In this document: positions 55,922-63,868 of the stretch, one piece after another
Layout of the letters: every line of letters starts with the position of its first letter
Position numbering within the stretch: position 1 is the first letter of the stretch
NCBI GenBank assembly: GCA_947174505.1
Contig: CAMWJF010000016.1
Location: 1 to 64,000 of the forward strand
Source of the DNA: an uncultured Lachnospiraceae bacterium
Lineage (GTDB): Bacteria; Bacillota; Clostridia; Lachnospirales; Lachnospiraceae
Length of the DNA stretch: 64,000 bases
Direction: 5' to 3'
The notes under the pieces: generated by a model
The model's input: only the letters and a program-made list of their open reading frames with translations
Database searches by the model: none
What the model was told of the DNA's origin: nothing
Position numbers and translations under genes: made by a program

Positions 55922-56746
55922 ATGGAGTACGCGAAAATCAGGAAAGAGGAAGCGGAAATGGATCTGACGGAACAGGATTTGGTGAGGCTGGGCCTGACCC
56001 GGAAAGGGAAGTGGCAGTATACGATCTCGGATATCGAGGTGCTCCCGGAAAACGTGAGGGCGGAGCTGATCGACGGGGAGCTGTTTGTCAAGATGAACAC
56101 GCCGGAGACCATTCATCAGGATATTCTGATGGGTCTGAGCTTTCAGGTGGAGCTCTACATACAGAAAAAGAAAGGGAAATGCCATGTATTCCCCGCCCCG
56201 TTCGGCGTGCAGATTAAAAAGGACATATATAATTATGTCGAGCCGGATATCACGCTGATCTGCGACGATGAAAAGCTGAACAGGCAGGGCTGCTACGGCG
56301 CGCCGGATTTTGTGGTTGAAATCGTCTCTCCCTCGAACAGAAAGATGGACTATGTGAGAAAACTTGCCCTGTACCGGGAAACCGGGGTCAGAGAATACTG
56401 GATCGTTGACCCGAAGCATGAACAGGTGACGGTCCATGACCTGGCAAATGAAAAAGAGCCGGTGCTCCACCCGTTCTCAGAGCGGATTAAGGTGGGGATT
56501 TACGACGACCTGTATCTGGATATTGCAAACCGGCACGACACCTTGGAGGAAGTCATTGCCGAGGAACGGGAAGCCAGCCGTGAGGAAGGACTCGCAGAAG
56601 GGCGTGCAGAGGGACTGAAAGAAGGGGAAGCCAGACTTGCCGGACTGACTGCCATTCTGCTGCAGGAAGGCCGCACGGACGACTTAGCCAAAGCGGTTAC
56701 CGACCCGGCATACAGGGAAAGACTATATGGGGAGAAGGCTTTGTAA
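55922..56746 (+). CDS. Uma2-family (PD-(D/E)XK) putative endonuclease
   Basis: 274 aa. The Uma2/DUF820 core is present: NYVEPDITLICDD, PDFVVEIVSPSNRKMDYVRK and YRETGVREYWIVDPKHEQ, with the acid/Lys residues in place. The C-terminal 60 residues add a Glu/Gly-rich helical repeat (REEGLAEGRAEGLKEGEARL), an extension also seen in transposase-like nucleases. GGAGG precedes the ATG. The role of the family is poorly known, suggested to be defence or mobile-element related. Confidence 0.83.
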   Translation: MEYAKIRKEEAEMDLTEQDLVRLGLTRKGKWQYTISDIEVLPENVRAELIDGELFVKMNTPETIHQDILMGLSFQVELYIQKKKGKCHVFPAPFGVQIKKDIYNYVEPDITLICDDEKLNRQGCYGAPDFVVEIVSPSNRKMDYVRKLALYRETGVREYWIVDPKHEQVTVHDLANEKEPVLHPFSERIKVGIYDDLYLDIANRHDTLEEVIAEEREASREEGLAEGRAEGLKEGEARLAGLTAILLQEGRTDDLAKAVTDPAYRERLYGEKAL

Positions 56747-56886
56747 TGTCTCGCCTGTTTAGAAATGCCAGATAACGAAGTAACAGAACTTCGAACGTTT
56801 TTTACAGCCCAACCACATTATTGCATTTTTCACAAAATTTTCATTCCTTTTTTGGCATTTGTATGAGAAAAAGAACAAAGGTCGTC

Positions 56887-56916
56887 TTGACTGTGATTCG
56901 ACACATGGCATATAAT
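56887..56916 (+). promoter_or_regulatory. Promoter of the pyruvate formate-lyase operon
   Basis: TTGACT, 18 bases, TATAAT, 104 bases before the ATG of the enzyme core. The preceding gap (56747-56886) is AT-rich without a gene. Confidence 0.75.
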
Positions 56917-56925
56917 ATTCTTACC

Positions 56926-56966
56926 GATTCAGAGTGATGCACCGTGGTTGTGCATGATTCCGAATG
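56926..56966 (+). promoter_or_regulatory. Hairpin at the 5' end of the pfl transcript
   Basis: GATTC and GATGCAC on one side pair with GTGCAT and GAATGC on the other, a long stem with small bulges right after the expected transcript start (about 56923). It may stabilise the mRNA. Confidence 0.45.
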
Positions 56967-57020
56967 CATCCATATCACAGTTACTTTATTAAAATTTTAA
57001 AATAGGAGGTTGGTACAAAA

Positions 57021-59060
57021 ATGAGACCAGAATGGAAAGATTTTGTAGGCGGCAAGTGGGACAAAGAAGTAAATGTCCGCGACTTCATCCAGAGAAACTA
57101 TCATCCTTATGACGGTGACGAGGCATTCCTGGCTGAGCCTACACAGAACACAAAGGATCTTTGGGCACAGGTGCTTGATCTGCAGAAGCAGGAGCGTGAG
57201 GCAGGCGGCGTACTTGATATGGATACCAAGGTTGTATCCACCATCACTTCCCATGGCCCCGGCTATCTGGATAAGAGCAAAGAGACCATCGTAGGTTTCC
57301 AGACGGATAAGCCTTTCAAGCGTTCTTTACAGCCCTACGGCGGTATCAGAATGGCTGAGAAAGCCTGCTCCGACAACGGCTACGAGGTAGATCCCGAAAT
57401 CAGCGAGTTTTTCTCCACTCACAGAAAGACACACAACGCAGGCTGCTTTGATGCATACAATGCCGAGATGAGAGCTTGCCGTTCCTCCCACATCATCACA
57501 GGTCTTCCGGATGCATATGGCCGTGGCCGTATCATCGGTGACTACAGACGTGTGGCTCTGTACGGTATCGACAGACTGATCGAAGATAAGCAGGCACAGA
57601 AGGATTCCACCGGCCGTGTTATGACCGACGATGTGATCCGTCTCCGCGAGGAGCTTTCCGAGCAGATGGTTGCCCTGAAGCTGATGAAGGAAATGGCTGC
57701 TTCCTATGGCTGCGACATTTCCAAGCCCGCTTCTAACGTACAGGAAGCAATTCAGGCTACCTACTTCGGATATCTTTGCTCTGTAAAAGAGCAGAACGGC
57801 GCGGCTATGTCCCTTGGACGTACGTCTACATTCCTTGATGTATACGCTGAGAGAGACCTTGCTAACGGCACATTCACAGAGCAGCAGATTCAGGAGTTCG
57901 TTGACCACTTCATCATGAAGCTGCGTCTGATCAAGTTTGCACGTACACCTGAATACAACCAGATTTTCGCAGGCGATCCGGTATGGGTAACCGAGTCCCT
58001 CGGCGGTGTTGGCGTTGACGGCCGTCACATGGTAACGAAGATGAGCTTCCGTTATCTGCACACACTGACCAACTTAGGTCCTTCACCGGAGCCGAACCTG
58101 ACAGTTCTCTGGTCCACCAGACTTCCTGAGAACTGGAAGAAATACTGTGCGAAGATGTCCATCCAGACCTCTTCCATCCAGTACGAGAATGATGACCTGA
58201 TGAGAGTGACACACGGCGATGATTACGGTATTGCCTGCTGCGTATCCTCCATGGTTATCGGTAAGGAAATGCAGTTCTTCGGCGCACGCGCTAACGTTGC
58301 TAAATGTCTGCTGTACGCTTTGAACGGCGGTGTAGACGAAGTTACCAAAAAGCAGGTTGGTCCTAAATACCGTCCTGTCAGCGGCGATGTGCTGGATTAT
58401 GACGATGTTATGGATAAGTTCATCGATATGCTTGAGTGGCAGGCAGATGTGTATGTAAATACACTGAACATTATCCACTATATGCATGACAAATACTGCT
58501 ACGAGAGAGCAGAGATGGCTCTTCATGACAGAGACGTTAAGCGTTACTTCGCAACAGGTGTTGCAGGTCTCTCCATCGTGGCTGATTCCCTTTCCGCTAT
58601 TAAGTATGCGAAGGTTGAGCCCATCAGAGACGAGGACGGCATCATCGTTGACTTTAAGACAACCGGCGAGTTCCCGAAATATGGTAACGACGATGACCGC
58701 GTAGATGAGATTGCGCAGGAGATCGTTCACAAGTTCATGACCGCGATCAGAAGACACCACACCTACAGAAACGGTGTTCCTACAACCTCTATCCTTACCA
58801 TTACTTCCAACGTAACCTACGGTAAGGCTACTGGTAACACACCTGACGGACGTAAGAAAGGCCAGCCTTTCGCACCCGGCGCTAACCCGATGCACGGCCG
58901 TGATACCCACGGTGCAGTTGCTTCCCTGTCTTCCGTATCCAAGCTTCCGTTCAATGATGCACAGGATGGTATCTCCAATACCTTCACCATCATTCCGGGC
59001 GCTCTTGGTAAAGAGGATCAGGTATTCGCAGGCGACATCGAGGTAGACCTCAGCAAATAA
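57021..59060 (+). CDS. pflB: Pyruvate formate-lyase core lacking the glycyl-radical domain
   Basis: 679 aa versus about 740-760 for typical PFL. It converts pyruvate and CoA to acetyl-CoA and formate. The catalytic Cys pair is in [10 protein letters not shown] (Cys406-Cys407). Barrel landmarks such as [18 protein letters not shown] and [12 protein letters not shown] are intact. The protein ends at GDIEVDLSK with a normal stop, just before where the family continues into the domain GGQHLNVNV...RVSGYA. That domain is a separate gene at 59426. GGAGG precedes the ATG. Highly codon-biased, as for abundant enzymes. The two hairpins after the stop may set the ratio of core to radical subunit. Confidence 0.93.
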
Positions 59061-59062
59061 CC

Positions 59063-59128
59063 GTGGTAAATTCCGGTGGAATTAACCACATGAGAAGTAC
59101 TTCTAAAGGCGGGACGCCAAGAAGTACT
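59063..59128 (+). other. Two intercistronic hairpins after the PFL core gene
   Basis: First: GTGGTAAATTCC/GGAATTAACCAC with one mismatch (59063-59089). Second: AGTACTTCT/AGAAGTACT (59096-59128). No T runs, so likely mRNA processing or stability elements. Confidence 0.55.
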
Positions 59129-59191
59129 AAGTATCACACGGGCACTGCTTTGCAGGCTCGGCATAAAATGAAATAGAAGGAGTTGTTGATT

Positions 59192-59404
59192 ATGGATGAC
59201 AAGCAAATGATAGATGATTTTATCAAGATGATGGATTCCGGGATGGCGCAGGGCGTCGGACATGTGAATGTCGATGTTGACGCCAGCACCGACAACTCTA
59301 AAAACGTACAGACTATGGGGTGCACGGATTGCTCCCGCACCCCGCTGGCCTGCAGCGTTCCCACACTCCACGACGGATTGGATGGGCTAGAAGATTACAA
59401 ATAA
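59192..59404 (+). CDS. 70-aa protein mimicking the start of the glycyl-radical subunit
   Basis: Starts with ATG after AAGGAG. Residues 1-30 (MIDDFIKMMDSGMAQGVGHV then NVDVD) align with the N-terminus of the radical subunit at 59426 ([22 protein letters not shown]). From residue 35 the sequences part: this one lacks the RVSGYA radical loop and ends in a short tail with MGCTDCSRTPLACSVPTLHDG, giving three Cys and an acidic end. It cannot be a spare radical subunit. A chaperone, inhibitor or docking role on the core is a guess. Confidence 0.75.
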   Translation: MDDKQMIDDFIKMMDSGMAQGVGHVNVDVDASTDNSKNVQTMGCTDCSRTPLACSVPTLHDGLDGLEDYK

Positions 59405-59425
59405 CAAATATGGGAGGACAATACA

Positions 59426-59662
59426 ATGGCAAATGCTCAGGTAGATAACTTAGTAAACTTATTAGATGGTTATGCAACAAAAGGCGGCCATCACCTTAAC
59501 GTAAACGTGCTCAACAGAGATATGTTACTGGATGCGCAGAAGCATCCTGAGAACTACCCTCAGTTGACCATCCGTGTATCCGGCTATGCAGTTAACTTCA
59601 TCAAGCTGACACCGGAACAGCAGGCGGACGTAATCTCCCGTACTTTCCACGAGAGTATCTAA
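59426..59662 (+). CDS. Stand-alone glycyl-radical subunit of PFL
   Basis: 78 aa with its own ribosome site (GGGAGGAC). The motif [18 protein letters not shown] and RVSGYAVNF, with radical Gly53, are the same as the C-terminal domain of normal PFL and of E. coli GrcA/YfiD, which can rescue damaged PFL. Here it is not a spare part because the core has no such domain. It must join with the core and be activated by the SAM enzyme PflA. A terminator follows. Confidence 0.9.
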
Positions 59663-59686
59663 TAACGTCAAATCTGAAGAATGCCG

Positions 59687-59720
59687 GAAGCCTTGCGATA
59701 CATCGCAGGGCTTCTTTTTT
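59687..59720 (+). terminator. Terminator after the radical subunit
   Basis: GAAGCC.TGCGA / TCGCA.GGCTTC stem with T6. pflA lies beyond it, so pflA and the 62-aa gene may be transcribed separately or by read-through. Confidence 0.85.
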
Positions 59721-59833
59721 CTGGATTTTCTTTTTCGTCTATGCTATCATATAAGTATCTTATACATTTGTAATGAAGAGGAATAACCCGTAAATAAACT
59801 GTAGACAATTAAAACAGAAGGGTTGGTGATTAT

Positions 59834-60022
59834 ATGCCAAACGCAGCAGAAATTATCAGAGATTCCATTGCAGAGTTTTCAAGAGTACAAAACTGGATGT
59901 TGGGTATCGAAGACAAAAACTCAGCTGTCTATCTGTCGATGTATGATAGATACCTAGAATTAAAAATCACATTGATGTCTTTAGGTGTTAATCTTTTAAA
60001 GTTTGACAAAATAGAAGAATAA
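59834..60022 (+). CDS. 62-aa small protein, paralogue of the one at 18265
   Basis: 62 aa, helical, soluble, no signal. Starts at the ATG at 59834 after GGTTGGTGA. Begins MPNAAEIIRDSIAEF and ends LGVNLLKFDKIEE, and shares those ends and the middle with the 63-aa protein at 18265. It lies 16 bases before pflA, so it is likely co-expressed with it. Function not recognised. Confidence 0.75.
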   Translation: MPNAAEIIRDSIAEFSRVQNWMLGIEDKNSAVYLSMYDRYLELKITLMSLGVNLLKFDKIEE

Positions 60023-60038
60023 ATAAAGGAGTATTATT

Positions 60039-60803
60039 ATGCAGGGACGAATCCATTCCTTAGAAAGCTTCGGCACGGTAGACGGCCCCGGAACCCGGTT
60101 TGTGGTATTTGTGCAGGGCTGTCCGATGCGGTGTGCCTACTGCCACAACCCCGACACGTGGGAAATGAACGGCGGCACGCTGATGGAGCCGGAATACATT
60201 TTTGAACAGTATAAGAGAAACGAGGCCTTTTATCACGGCGGCGGCATCACCGTTACAGGAGGTGAACCGCTGATGCAGGTGGATTTTCTGATCGACCTGT
60301 TTACCATTGCAAAAAAGAATAATGTGCATACCTGTATCGATTCCTCCGGCATTGCCTACAAAAAGAATGCAAATCCGGAGTGGCTCGCAAAGCTGGATCG
60401 GCTGATGGAGTTGACTGATTTAGTCATGCTGGATATTAAGCACATTGATTCGGAAAAACACAAGGAGCTTACCTCCCAGCCCAACGAAGGGATTCTCGCA
60501 TTTGCGGAGTATTTGAACGAAAAGCACGTTGATATGTGGATTCGACACGTCATTGTTCCGGGTGTTACGGACGACGAGCAGTATCTGCACCAGCTTGGCT
60601 ATTTTATCGGCGCCTTCACTAATCTGAAGGCTCTGGACGCGCTTCCCTATCATACAATGGGGGAATCCAAATATGAGAAACTTGGCATGGAATACAAGCT
60701 CAAAGGCGTTCCTGCCATGGACAAGGATAAGCTGATTGAGAAAAAAAAGGTCATTCTGGACGGCATCCGCAAACGCCGGGAAGAGTTGGGCATAAACGCA
60801 TAA
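60039..60803 (+). CDS. pflA: Pyruvate formate-lyase activating enzyme
   Basis: 254 aa. Radical SAM enzyme that installs the glycyl radical. The cluster motif CPMRCAYC (Cys28, Cys32, Cys35), the SAM-binding GGITVTGGEPLMQ and the C-terminal region are typical of PflA. Preceded by AAAGGAG. The operon order is core, 70-aa gene, radical subunit, terminator, 62-aa gene, pflA. Confidence 0.95.
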   Translation: MQGRIHSLESFGTVDGPGTRFVVFVQGCPMRCAYCHNPDTWEMNGGTLMEPEYIFEQYKRNEAFYHGGGITVTGGEPLMQVDFLIDLFTIAKKNNVHTCIDSSGIAYKKNANPEWLAKLDRLMELTDLVMLDIKHIDSEKHKELTSQPNEGILAFAEYLNEKHVDMWIRHVIVPGVTDDEQYLHQLGYFIGAFTNLKALDALPYHTMGESKYEKLGMEYKLKGVPAMDKDKLIEKKKVILDGIRKRREELGINA

Positions 60804-60814
60804 TCAAACGGAAA

Positions 60815-60853
60815 AATGGGGCAGAATTGAAACTCGTTACTGCCCCATTTGTA
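60815..60853. terminator. Bidirectional terminator after pflA and the hybrid kinase
   Basis: Arms AAATGGGGCAG and CTGCCCCATTT, with an A run on the plus side and a T run on both. Convergent genes end here. Confidence 0.85.
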
Positions 60854-60886
60854 TACATAGAGAAAAATCGGGAAATCTGTGTGCTG

Positions 60887-63868
60887 TCACTGAATCCATT
60901 TCTTCAGCGCTTCCTCCAGCCTCTCAATATCTACCGGCTTGGAGACATGGCCATTCATACCCGCTTCTTCGGCCTTCCTGATATCATCCGCAAATGCATC
61001 GGCCGTCATCGCTACAATGGGAATATTCTCCAAATCTTTCCTGCCAGATGCGCGGATCGCCTTGGCTGCCTCATAGCCGTTCATAACAGGCATCTGAATA
61101 TCCATAAATATCAGGTCATAGTAGCCCGGCTCCTTCCCCTCCACTGCCTCGACGGCCAGTTGTCCGTTCTCCGCCATGTCCACCTGAATCCCCACAATGC
61201 CCAAAAGCTCTTTCGCCACTTCTATATTGATTTCATTATCTTCCACCAGCAGCACACGTCTGCCGGAAAAGTCCTGCTCCCTGAATGTGTCGAGCGCTGT
61301 CGTCTCCTCTTCCTCATCCCCGTGCCCCAGCACTTCTTTCAGCACACGTATCAGTCGGGATTTGAACAGAGGTTTTCCGATAAATGCGTTCACACCAACC
61401 TCCGTTGCCTCTGTCTCAATATCTGCCCAGTCATAGGCAGACAGGATAACAAGTGAGATATCATCACCTACTAAACTGCGGATATCTTTTGCCGTCTCAA
61501 GACCGTCCTTACCAGGCATCTTCCAATCGAGAATTGCTACGGAGAAAGGTTTCTCCGCTTGTGCTTCCCTGATACGCTCTATCGCCTCGTCACCGTCATG
61601 CGCAGCTTCAGCCGCCATGCCAAGGCTTCTGATGATCTCACAGGCACTCTCGCAGGCATCCTCCTCGTCATCCACCACCAGTACCGGAAATCCAGCGTAA
61701 GGCAGAAGATCCGCCTCCGAACTGTCATCCAGCTTCAAATATACTGTGACGACAAACTTAGAACCTTTGCCCAGCGTACTCTCCACCTTAATATCCCCGT
61801 CCATCATGCGGGCAATGCTGACCGCAATCGACATACCGAGCCCCGTTCCCTCAATCTTGCCGATGCGGGAGTCCGCCGCCCTCGAAAATGGCTCAAAAAT
61901 CGTCTGAATAAATTCCTCCGACATACCTATGCCAGTATCCTGAAATGTGAACTCGTAATAACCGCTTCCGGGAATATGGGAAGGTTTCTCTTCAATATGA
62001 ATACTGATCTCTCCGCCGGAAGGTGTAAACTTGACCGCATTGCCCATGATATTCATAAATATCTGCTGTAAATGCTGATCGTCACCCACTACATTCTCGT
62101 GCTCAAGCTTGGCTATCCCGGCGTTAAATTGTATTCCCTTGGCCTCCATCTGCGCGCGGAACACAGTGAGAAGGCTCTCAATCGTATCAGACAGGTTAAA
62201 GGCGTCCTCGGTCAGGCTCACCTTTCCACTCTCAATCCGGCTCATATCCAGCACTTCATTGATCAGGCCGAGAAGATGCTTGCCGGAAATCGTTATCTTT
62301 TCAAGAGCATCCAGCACACGCTCCTTCTCATCAATATGCATTTGTGCAACGGAAGTCATACCCAGGATGGCATTCATCGGTGTCCGGATATCGTGGCTCA
62401 TCCGGGAAAGGAAATCACTCTTGGCGTGATTCGCCGCCTCCGCCCGCTGCACGGCCAGGGCGAGCATTTCCCTCTGCTCCTCCTCTCTGCTGATCACGTC
62501 GTCTATATTGCGGACAGCCAGAGTAATGGCTGCCAGCTTACCGTCCCGTGTCCGCTCCGCCGTGGTAATGGCGATAGAGCACCATTCATACTCTTTGCTG
62601 TCAGGTCTTTTTCTCTTAAACTGCTGCTCTATATGGTCTTTTTCGAAGAGCATTTGCCTGATATTGGACAGCTTGAGGAAGTCTCTCACCTGCTCGAGAT
62701 TGTCCTCCATTACAATGTTTCCGGTAATCAGGACGGACATCTCTTTCTCGTAATCCCCGCTGATAATCTTTCCTTCGTTGCGGGGATAGACCACCTCGCA
62801 AGCTTGCGTTTTCATATCGACATAGTATATCGACCGGCAGGCGCGCGCCATACTGTCCATGGCATTCCGATAAATCCTTGTCTGCTCTGCCATTCTGTCG
62901 TTTTCCTCAATCAGAGCCTGATTGTGTTTTTCGTTCAGGTACTCCCGAACGACCTGGAACACACAGACAGCGGTGCCAAGCAGGACAAGCAGAATGCATA
63001 TGTAACGAAAGGTATTCGCACCGGAAAGGATCTCATTCTTCGGAATCGTCAGAATTCCCGTCCATCCGTTGCTCATGTGATGGAAGTAAATGTTGCGGAC
63101 AATACCGTCCGCGGGCGTGACATTTTCCAGTACGCATTTTCCTTTTTCATAGTTCGCATCTTTGACATAGCCGTTCACCAAATTCTGAAAGTCCTCGTAC
63201 TGATAGTCCCAGCAGGAATTGTAATAGAGAAGCGCCCCCTGGCTGCCGACCAGGTAGTATGAGGAGTCCTTCGGAAGTACCAGATTCTCGTTATGGTGTT
63301 CAAAGTAGGAAGGCTTAATGTCAATGGCCAGAAAGCTGCCCGTGGCAGGAACCACCTTGCACATGGTGACCACAGAAAGTCCGGTAATCGCATCTGTATA
63401 GGCAGGCGATATATAGATATCTCCTGCTGCTTCAACTGCACCCCGGTAGTAATCGGTACCTGTAATATCGAAGGTAAGCCGCTCTTCTATTTCCGGATTA
63501 TTCGACACGACCTGCGTTGCGTTGAAGGCCATGCCATAGACCTGAATGTTTTCCTCCCCGTACATATCGGTCAGTTCATCCATAAAAGGGTACAGCCCCT
63601 GCCGCAATTCTTCGATAGAAATGTCGGCCCGCTCCCGCTCCGCTAAATAGTTCACTCCGATATTCAGGATGGACTCACAGGTACGGATCTTGCTCTCCTC
63701 CGACGCGGTATAATTTTCCACCAGAGTCAATCCCATCTCATTGGCATTATCCCACAGAGCCTGATTCAGAATATTAATGCAGAGCACGACGACTAGGATA
63801 AATACGCTGAGGACAATAATATTATTACGCATCTTTTTTACTAACTGTATTTTTTTATTCTTTTCCAT
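60887..63868 (-). CDS. Hybrid sensor histidine kinase with two receiver domains
   Basis: 993 aa. N-terminal membrane segment (about 13-35), an extracellular Cache-like sensor (about 45-285), a second membrane segment (about 288-310), a PAS-like part (about 330-470), HisKA with HAKSDFLSRMSHDIRTPMN (phosphorylated His near 497), HATPase_c (DDQHLQQIFMNIMGNAVKFT, DTGIGM, GTGLGMSI), then two receivers: VLVVDDEEDACES with AILDWKMPGKDG, and LLVEDNEINIEVAKELL with FMDIQMPVMNG. No DNA-binding output, so it must pass phosphate on or signal otherwise. Convergent with pflA, no partner adjacent. Confidence 0.92.
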   Translation of the reverse strand: MEKNKKIQLVKKMRNNIIVLSVFILVVVLCINILNQALWDNANEMGLTLVENYTASEESKIRTCESILNIGVNYLAERERADISIEELRQGLYPFMDELTDMYGEENIQVYGMAFNATQVVSNNPEIEERLTFDITGTDYYRGAVEAAGDIYISPAYTDAITGLSVVTMCKVVPATGSFLAIDIKPSYFEHHNENLVLPKDSSYYLVGSQGALLYYNSCWDYQYEDFQNLVNGYVKDANYEKGKCVLENVTPADGIVRNIYFHHMSNGWTGILTIPKNEILSGANTFRYICILLVLLGTAVCVFQVVREYLNEKHNQALIEENDRMAEQTRIYRNAMDSMARACRSIYYVDMKTQACEVVYPRNEGKIISGDYEKEMSVLITGNIVMEDNLEQVRDFLKLSNIRQMLFEKDHIEQQFKRKRPDSKEYEWCSIAITTAERTRDGKLAAITLAVRNIDDVISREEEQREMLALAVQRAEAANHAKSDFLSRMSHDIRTPMNAILGMTSVAQMHIDEKERVLDALEKITISGKHLLGLINEVLDMSRIESGKVSLTEDAFNLSDTIESLLTVFRAQMEAKGIQFNAGIAKLEHENVVGDDQHLQQIFMNIMGNAVKFTPSGGEISIHIEEKPSHIPGSGYYEFTFQDTGIGMSEEFIQTIFEPFSRAADSRIGKIEGTGLGMSIAVSIARMMDGDIKVESTLGKGSKFVVTVYLKLDDSSEADLLPYAGFPVLVVDDEEDACESACEIIRSLGMAAEAAHDGDEAIERIREAQAEKPFSVAILDWKMPGKDGLETAKDIRSLVGDDISLVILSAYDWADIETEATEVGVNAFIGKPLFKSRLIRVLKEVLGHGDEEEETTALDTFREQDFSGRRVLLVEDNEINIEVAKELLGIVGIQVDMAENGQLAVEAVEGKEPGYYDLIFMDIQMPVMNGYEAAKAIRASGRKDLENIPIVAMTADAFADDIRKAEEAGMNGHVSKPVDIERLEEALKKWIQ

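Follow-up and report, generated by a model that had tools for sequence, protein, structure and literature searches.

The window analysed here, a 64,000-nucleotide stretch from an uncultured Lachnospiraceae bacterium (GenBank assembly GCA_947174505.1, contig CAMWJF010000016.1, positions 1 to 64,000 of the forward strand), encodes pyruvate formate-lyase (PFL) in separate pieces: a core chain that stops ahead of the glycyl-radical domain, a stand-alone radical subunit of the GrcA3 family and, between the two, a small third gene referred to here as orf70, with the gene for the activating enzyme PflA further downstream. PFL is central to fermentation, and oxygen destroys the radical on which it depends. 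These genes likely specify a split enzyme of several obligate parts with orf70 as a partner, an estimate that does not include a helper role for orf70. A more specific proposal is advanced tentatively, at somewhat less than even confidence, namely that in a three-part PFL of these Clostridia orf70 would be a chimera of a duplicated radical-domain fragment and a cysteine-rich core tail, serving as a redox-gated activation or protection device. If true, such a device would let the oxygen-fragile radical part be made, activated, blocked and replaced apart from the large enzyme.

Core and radical subunit on separate chains

The core ends at its own stop after GDIEVDLSK, upstream of where the glycyl-radical domain would begin, as a previous reading made from the sequence alone (the sequence-only reading) had claimed. 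Its match to the PFL model TIGR01255 (protein residues 5-668; 1093.8 bits, cut-off 994.2) spans model positions 2-665 of 744 in the genome search, and the radical domain is found in a separate frame, the 78-residue protein matching TIGR01255 at positions 664-744 and PF01228 at positions 51-106. On the E. coli PFL chain of PDB 1h16, the core aligns up to residue 681 and the small subunit from residue 683 onwards. The latter passes the GrcA3 model NF038360 (160.8 bits, cut-off 158), which bears the NCBIfam family name 'autonomous glycyl radical cofactor', and does not pass the GrcA/YfiD model TIGR04365 (100.1 bits versus a cut-off of 170, positions 65-126 only). PflA passes TIGR02493 (293 bits, cut-off 231.75).

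Both halves keep the catalytic residues that the sequence-only reading had listed. The active-site pair Cys406-Cys407 is present in the core motif IACCVS (codons at 58236-58241) and invariant in both core alignments (A4 and A5), and Gly53 is present in GrcA3; IACCVS occurs in 105 of 106 unfused cores and R[VI]SGY in all 128 stand-alone GrcA3 frames. Median ratios of non-synonymous to synonymous change (pN/pS) relative to the window copy are 0.052 for the core (79 loci) and 0.077 for GrcA3 (77 loci). The low core value, together with the occurrence of the split form in relatives given below, bears out the previous view that this is not a decayed gene. The separate start and ribosome-binding-like site assigned to GrcA3 also held; the gap before it, which measures 365 bases, is not empty and contains orf70.

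No other PFL that could act as the true enzyme was found in the genome; such a second PFL, which the sequence-only reading had named as fatal to its claim, is rejected here. In the assembly (94.1% complete, 151 contigs) the single PF02901 match is the window core and the single GrcA3 match is the window copy. The only other glycyl-radical match lies in a frame that was read from its sequence as a class III ribonucleotide reductase. No single-chain pyruvate:ferredoxin oxidoreductase exceeded the cut-off in the genome, the multi-subunit form not having been searched for. Absence of another PFL from this incomplete assembly suggests that the separate radical subunit would be obligatory.

The split form is widespread among relatives. 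In a survey of 120 genomes of the family, own genome included, with PFL forms tallied by hand, PFL exceeded the cut-off in 89, being fused only in 46, split only in 41 and present in both forms in two. A sizeable group of the family thus appears to run PFL permanently in parts (41 of the 89 PFL-bearing genomes). Each of the 43 genomes with the split form carries a stand-alone GrcA3 frame, and in all 43 loci examined (the window and L085-L126) this frame lies 3' of the core, the arrangement for which the sequence-only reading had proposed to search genomes. Across the class (291 genomes), at least 18 genomes from nine families have a stand-alone GrcA3 frame, by hand count among the matches listed. 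A scan of named genomes for orf70, in which the best 80 of 332 relatives were kept (record titles mostly Lachnospiraceae) and loci were retrieved with a pattern requiring one orf70 cysteine, gave the order core-orf70-GrcA3-PflA in 68 loci, core-orf70-GrcA3 in nine, core-orf70 in two and orf70-GrcA3-PflA in one, so that core-orf70-GrcA3 is held in 77 of 80. The same break point recurs across dozens of genera, many of them with a conserved gene between the halves. In one locus of the class (L245), orf70 lies 3' of GrcA3 rather than between core and GrcA3.

A further GrcA3 is present on another contig in seven of the split-PFL genomes. One (L128), next to PflA at the very start of its contig, was set aside; among the other six (L129-L134), a Crp-family regulator confirmed by Pfam adjoins three (L129, L132 and L133), the remaining three having been judged by eye. 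As genomic context, these extra copies and their Crp-family neighbours would fit the replaceable radical part suggested by the sequence-only reading.

Phylogenetic trees of the cores, which were quick and built without bootstraps, place the split form largely in a single lineage. The larger tree has 110 cores, with L248 omitted (partial core) and L252 represented by its longer piece only; 64 of its rows group in a single clade (Shimodaira-Hasegawa-like approximate likelihood ratio support, SH-aLRT, 99) composed of all split cores but one plus four fused PFLs. Keeping 44 split cores apart from these four fused ones was rejected in a tree of 74 cores (approximately unbiased test, p 0.011; the group was picked post hoc). 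The four nested fused PFLs look like re-fusions, and in one of them (L076) a cysteine-rich linker joins core and radical domain. The split core outside the main clade (L256), which has neither orf70 nor a cysteine-rich tail, may from its position represent an independent second split. That this is a naturally split PFL, as the sequence-only reading had claimed, agrees with the only PFL found, the lack of a single-chain pyruvate:ferredoxin oxidoreductase above its cut-off, the one large clade with nearly all split cores, and a radical subunit that comes after the core throughout the family survey (43 of 43) and in 77 of the 80 named loci; its further statement that the radical subunit is obligatory is retained here as an inference.

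The third gene and the cysteine-rich core tails

orf70 was found in 24 of 25 genomes of the same genus (own genome included) and, elsewhere in the order, in one of 16 genomes. With a profile search of the order, matches with E below 1e-14 were obtained in 21 of 196 genomes from four families (hand count); 35 of 196 reach E 0.001, and those beyond the 21 are due to GrcA3 or fused PFL, whose start is alike. Loci L245, L253 and L255 add two further families of the class in which orf70 is present. Its median pN/pS versus the window copy, 0.134 over 79 named loci, indicates a protein that is very probably translated and under purifying selection.

No Pfam or NCBIfam cut-off is passed by orf70 and the window copy has no Pfam match, so that it appears to be a previously unnamed protein lacking a family of its own in either collection. 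The GrcA3 model weakly touches 15 of 16 diverse members (best E 8.6e-7; window copy residues 4-29, E 0.096), and PF01228 is not passed, with a weak match in one of the 16 (E 0.01). In profile-profile comparison (hhalign), the start of orf70 aligns with GrcA3 over 32 columns (probability 96.3%, E 1.8e-9). The SGY radical loop is present in none of 106 orf70 frames. All 106 have at least two cysteines, and C-x(3,9)-AC-x-[VITP]-P-[TN] fits 104 of them; this count is partly built in for the pattern-fetched named loci and free of that bias in L085-L127, which were found through GrcA3 or the core. From these profiles, orf70 probably derives from a duplicate of the leading part of the radical domain (about 32 residues, without the glycine) that has diverged and is fused to a cysteine-rich end. 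Cysteine spacing is variable: orf70 has C-x2-C-x6-C and C-x6-C, and some core tails carry CxCC or CC. A search of PDB sequences with orf70 returned one chance match (E 1.9).

Small proteins weakly resembling orf70 (74-116 residues, with KCCN or QCCN) occur in L031-L034 beside a protein of 464-477 residues, with no PFL in the stretch; the likeness spans about 40-50 residues and may be due to chance. A weak orf70 match in the own genome (G000:C18:13258-13344, E 5.7e-4) is perhaps the same protein.

Cores that are not accompanied by orf70 mostly end in a cysteine-rich tail, for example DCANMACNIPNIEESID. A profile of 16 such tails matched the orf70 end (hhalign probability 95.8%, E 8.1e-9), versus 0.1% for a control made from the tails of 27 orf70-bearing cores. 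Among 62 split loci (the window, L085-L127 and L245-L262), 34 have orf70 only, 23 have only a core tail with at least two cysteines, and none has both. The last 18 loci were chosen for stand-alone GrcA3 or orf70 matches, and these proportions thus describe a non-random sample; it includes one partial core (L248) and one core with a tail (L252) in which a stop breaks the frame at 291 residues. On the sequences of these loci, orf70 and the core tail are mutually exclusive. Their states require at least seven changes among 44 rows of the tree, and this repeated swap between a cysteine-rich tail on the core and a cysteine-rich end on a separate protein constitutes a natural experiment.

The closest solved cores by sequence are PDB 38lb_A and 38la_A (formate acetyltransferase), whose truncation may be natural or engineered. 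Neither is matched by GrcA3 or by orf70, and the residues following the core are too few for a radical domain; in 38lb these include GECDMC, resembling the core-tail type. Both entries suggest that some group works on such cores. What is already known thus comprises the radical subunit as the named family GrcA3 and these two split-like cores. Among the papers listed by searches of the open literature, outside subscription journals and bioRxiv, none deals with a PFL that is split in nature, judging from titles and the start of abstracts; it may well have been described elsewhere.

Possible roles of orf70 and alternative explanations

A split of this kind has been engineered in E. coli for repair studies, and the locus described here would be its natural counterpart. 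According to the available portions of PMC8683613, E. coli YfiD folds over residues 61-127 like residues 693-759 of PFL, barrel strand 10 included, and a core cut at residue 695 combined with YfiD has wild-type activity once activated. The same portions report that binding between core 1-695 and YfiD was undetectable and activation 32-fold lower, which its authors ascribe to the absent residues 696-733, taken as a recognition element. The natural split cores analysed here have no element equivalent to 696-733 of the radical domain, and since the start of orf70 resembles the leading part of that domain, orf70 may supply a part lost by the split.

In the enzyme proposed, the core would supply the Cys406-Cys407 active site, GrcA3 would carry the glycyl radical on a loop that enters the core, and PflA would install that radical on GrcA3. 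orf70, or the core tail in its stead, would act at the junction between the core C-terminus and GrcA3, providing in trans something lost by the split; the likeliest candidate is help for GrcA3 in docking productively and becoming activated. The specific suggestion that orf70 promotes docking and activation, with its thiols as a redox-sensitive element, is considered slightly less probable than its negation. Variable cysteine spacing favours thiol chemistry over a fixed metal site. Under this proposal, orf70 offers a handle on how a detached radical domain finds its core, is activated only there and escapes oxygen.

Several results weigh against this proposal. BLASTP gave no alignment between orf70 and GrcA3, and by counting the orf70 copy reaches only about E. 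coli residue 709, that is, about the first third of 696-733. When the 16 tails are compared individually with the orf70 end, six exceed by a clear margin the 7.9 bits of the best shuffled tail, one is marginal (8.3) and nine fall below; the linker of the fused L076 does not match (-0.1 bits). For the nine tails and this linker, the likeness to orf70 amounts to just the possession of at least two cysteines. Five of the 62 split loci have neither orf70 nor a cysteine-rich tail in the fetched stretch (L122, L248, L254, L256 and L261). Well-supported independent pairs number only four, three in the opposite direction and one tied (p 0.25), too few for a test. The GrcA3 copies located away from the locus may serve as spare parts too. 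AlphaFold2 models of core, orf70 and GrcA3 and of core and GrcA3 reached mean predicted local distance difference test (pLDDT) values of 53.5 and 55.4, respectively, too weak to interpret; inputs came from relatives, since the window frames are not in line, and read-through of stop codons was a folding device only. Finally, the proposal is built on sequence comparisons.

The main rival assigns another function to the same part and overlaps with the preferred explanation: orf70 could be a plug or quencher. As long as no GrcA3 is bound, its start would occupy the place of the radical-domain strand in the core, and under oxygen its thiols would shield the active site or quench the radical. That orf70 copies the front of the domain and never the SGY loop (0 of 106) would agree with such a role, as would the two or more cysteines in all 106 frames, whose variable spacing suits thiol chemistry, bearing in mind that 80 loci were fetched by a cysteine-requiring pattern. 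However, the core tails of 23 loci come without a domain-like start, so that competition for the strand site cannot be shared by both forms as their function. This role is considered less likely than not.

Less probable still is a role for orf70 outside the resting enzyme, as an adaptor that binds metal (carrying Fe-S or Zn) or the activase (helping PflA to dock). Its cysteine-rich end would suit an adaptor, and small cysteine-rich subunits partner the glycyl radical enzymes 4-hydroxyphenylacetate decarboxylase and benzylsuccinate synthase, whose large subunits retain their own radical domain. On the other hand, the spacing of its cysteines varies, and no metal-binding Pfam family appears among the matches of 16 members.

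An explanation that confines GrcA3 to repair, following the E. coli model, and takes the core for a minor or damaged gene is highly improbable and was rejected. The E. coli system is alike in that a small separate glycyl-radical protein (GrcA/YfiD) completes a PFL core (PflB), and both the NCBIfam name of GrcA3, which implies a free repair cofactor, and the extra copies in some relatives speak for a repair role. Yet in E. coli a full-length PFL exists, which YfiD repairs after oxygen cleavage, whereas here no full-length PFL was found in the 94.1% complete assembly and GrcA3 is the sole PFL radical domain found, beside a truncated core; 41 of the 89 PFL-bearing family genomes have the split form only, and the core evolves under a median pN/pS of 0.052. 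Unlike YfiD, GrcA3 here has 78 residues, lacks the disordered N-terminal half and is accompanied by a third protein. An assembly error or recent frameshift breaking one gene, for which only the 151 contigs of the assembly could be adduced, has a negligible probability and is refuted by the conservation of the break across dozens of genera, often with a conserved gene between the halves; the same split in 43 of 43 loci and the conserved order in 77 of 80 likewise exclude the sequencing error considered by the sequence-only reading.

Layout of the locus and minor features

The coordinates of the predicted features are given in Table 1. Promoter-like sites in the region (6) are not above chance (mean of 6.6 in shuffles), and terminator-like sites also number 6, versus a mean of 3.8 in shuffles.

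Table 1. Predicted features of the split PFL locus, in window coordinates
Feature	Position	Strand	Evidence
Promoter-like site of PFL core, TTGACT-18-TATAAT	56887..56916	+	11/12 consensus matches
Ribosome-binding-site-like AGGAGG of PFL core	57004..57009	+	sequence reading
PFL core lacking the glycyl-radical domain, 679 aa	57021..59060	+	TIGR01255 1093.8 bits; PF02901 726 bits
Core-orf70 spacer with three strong hairpins, one a dispersed palindrome	59061..59191	+	fold z-score -4.58
Ribosome-binding-site-like AAGGAG of orf70	59177..59182	+	sequence reading
orf70, 70 aa, radical-domain-like start and cysteine-rich end (Cys44, Cys47, Cys54)	59192..59404	+	conservation, pN/pS, profiles
Ribosome-binding-site-like GGGAGG of GrcA3	59412..59417	+	sequence reading
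GrcA3, 78-aa glycyl-radical subunit (Gly53 codon 59582-59584)	59426..59662	+	NF038360 160.8 bits
Terminator-like hairpin with T tail, 3' of GrcA3	59686..59715	+	13 pairs
62-aa open reading frame of unknown function, between GrcA3 and PflA	59834..60022	+	seen in L006, L007, L008
PflA, PFL-activating radical S-adenosylmethionine enzyme, 254 aa	60039..60803	+	TIGR02493 293 bits

The 62-residue open reading frame has no Pfam match; it shows 56-80% identity to counterparts in three near relatives (L006-L008), with no match in the other loci compared. An Rfam search of 56700-61000 gave no match. The hairpins of the core-orf70 spacer were first considered as a signal fixing the ratio of the products, a reading that was not upheld: one of them is a dispersed palindrome, and among 14 spacers of relatives four are only 23-31 bases long. 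This palindrome has eight copies in the genome, four of them clustered on contig C22, versus none in a reversed control.

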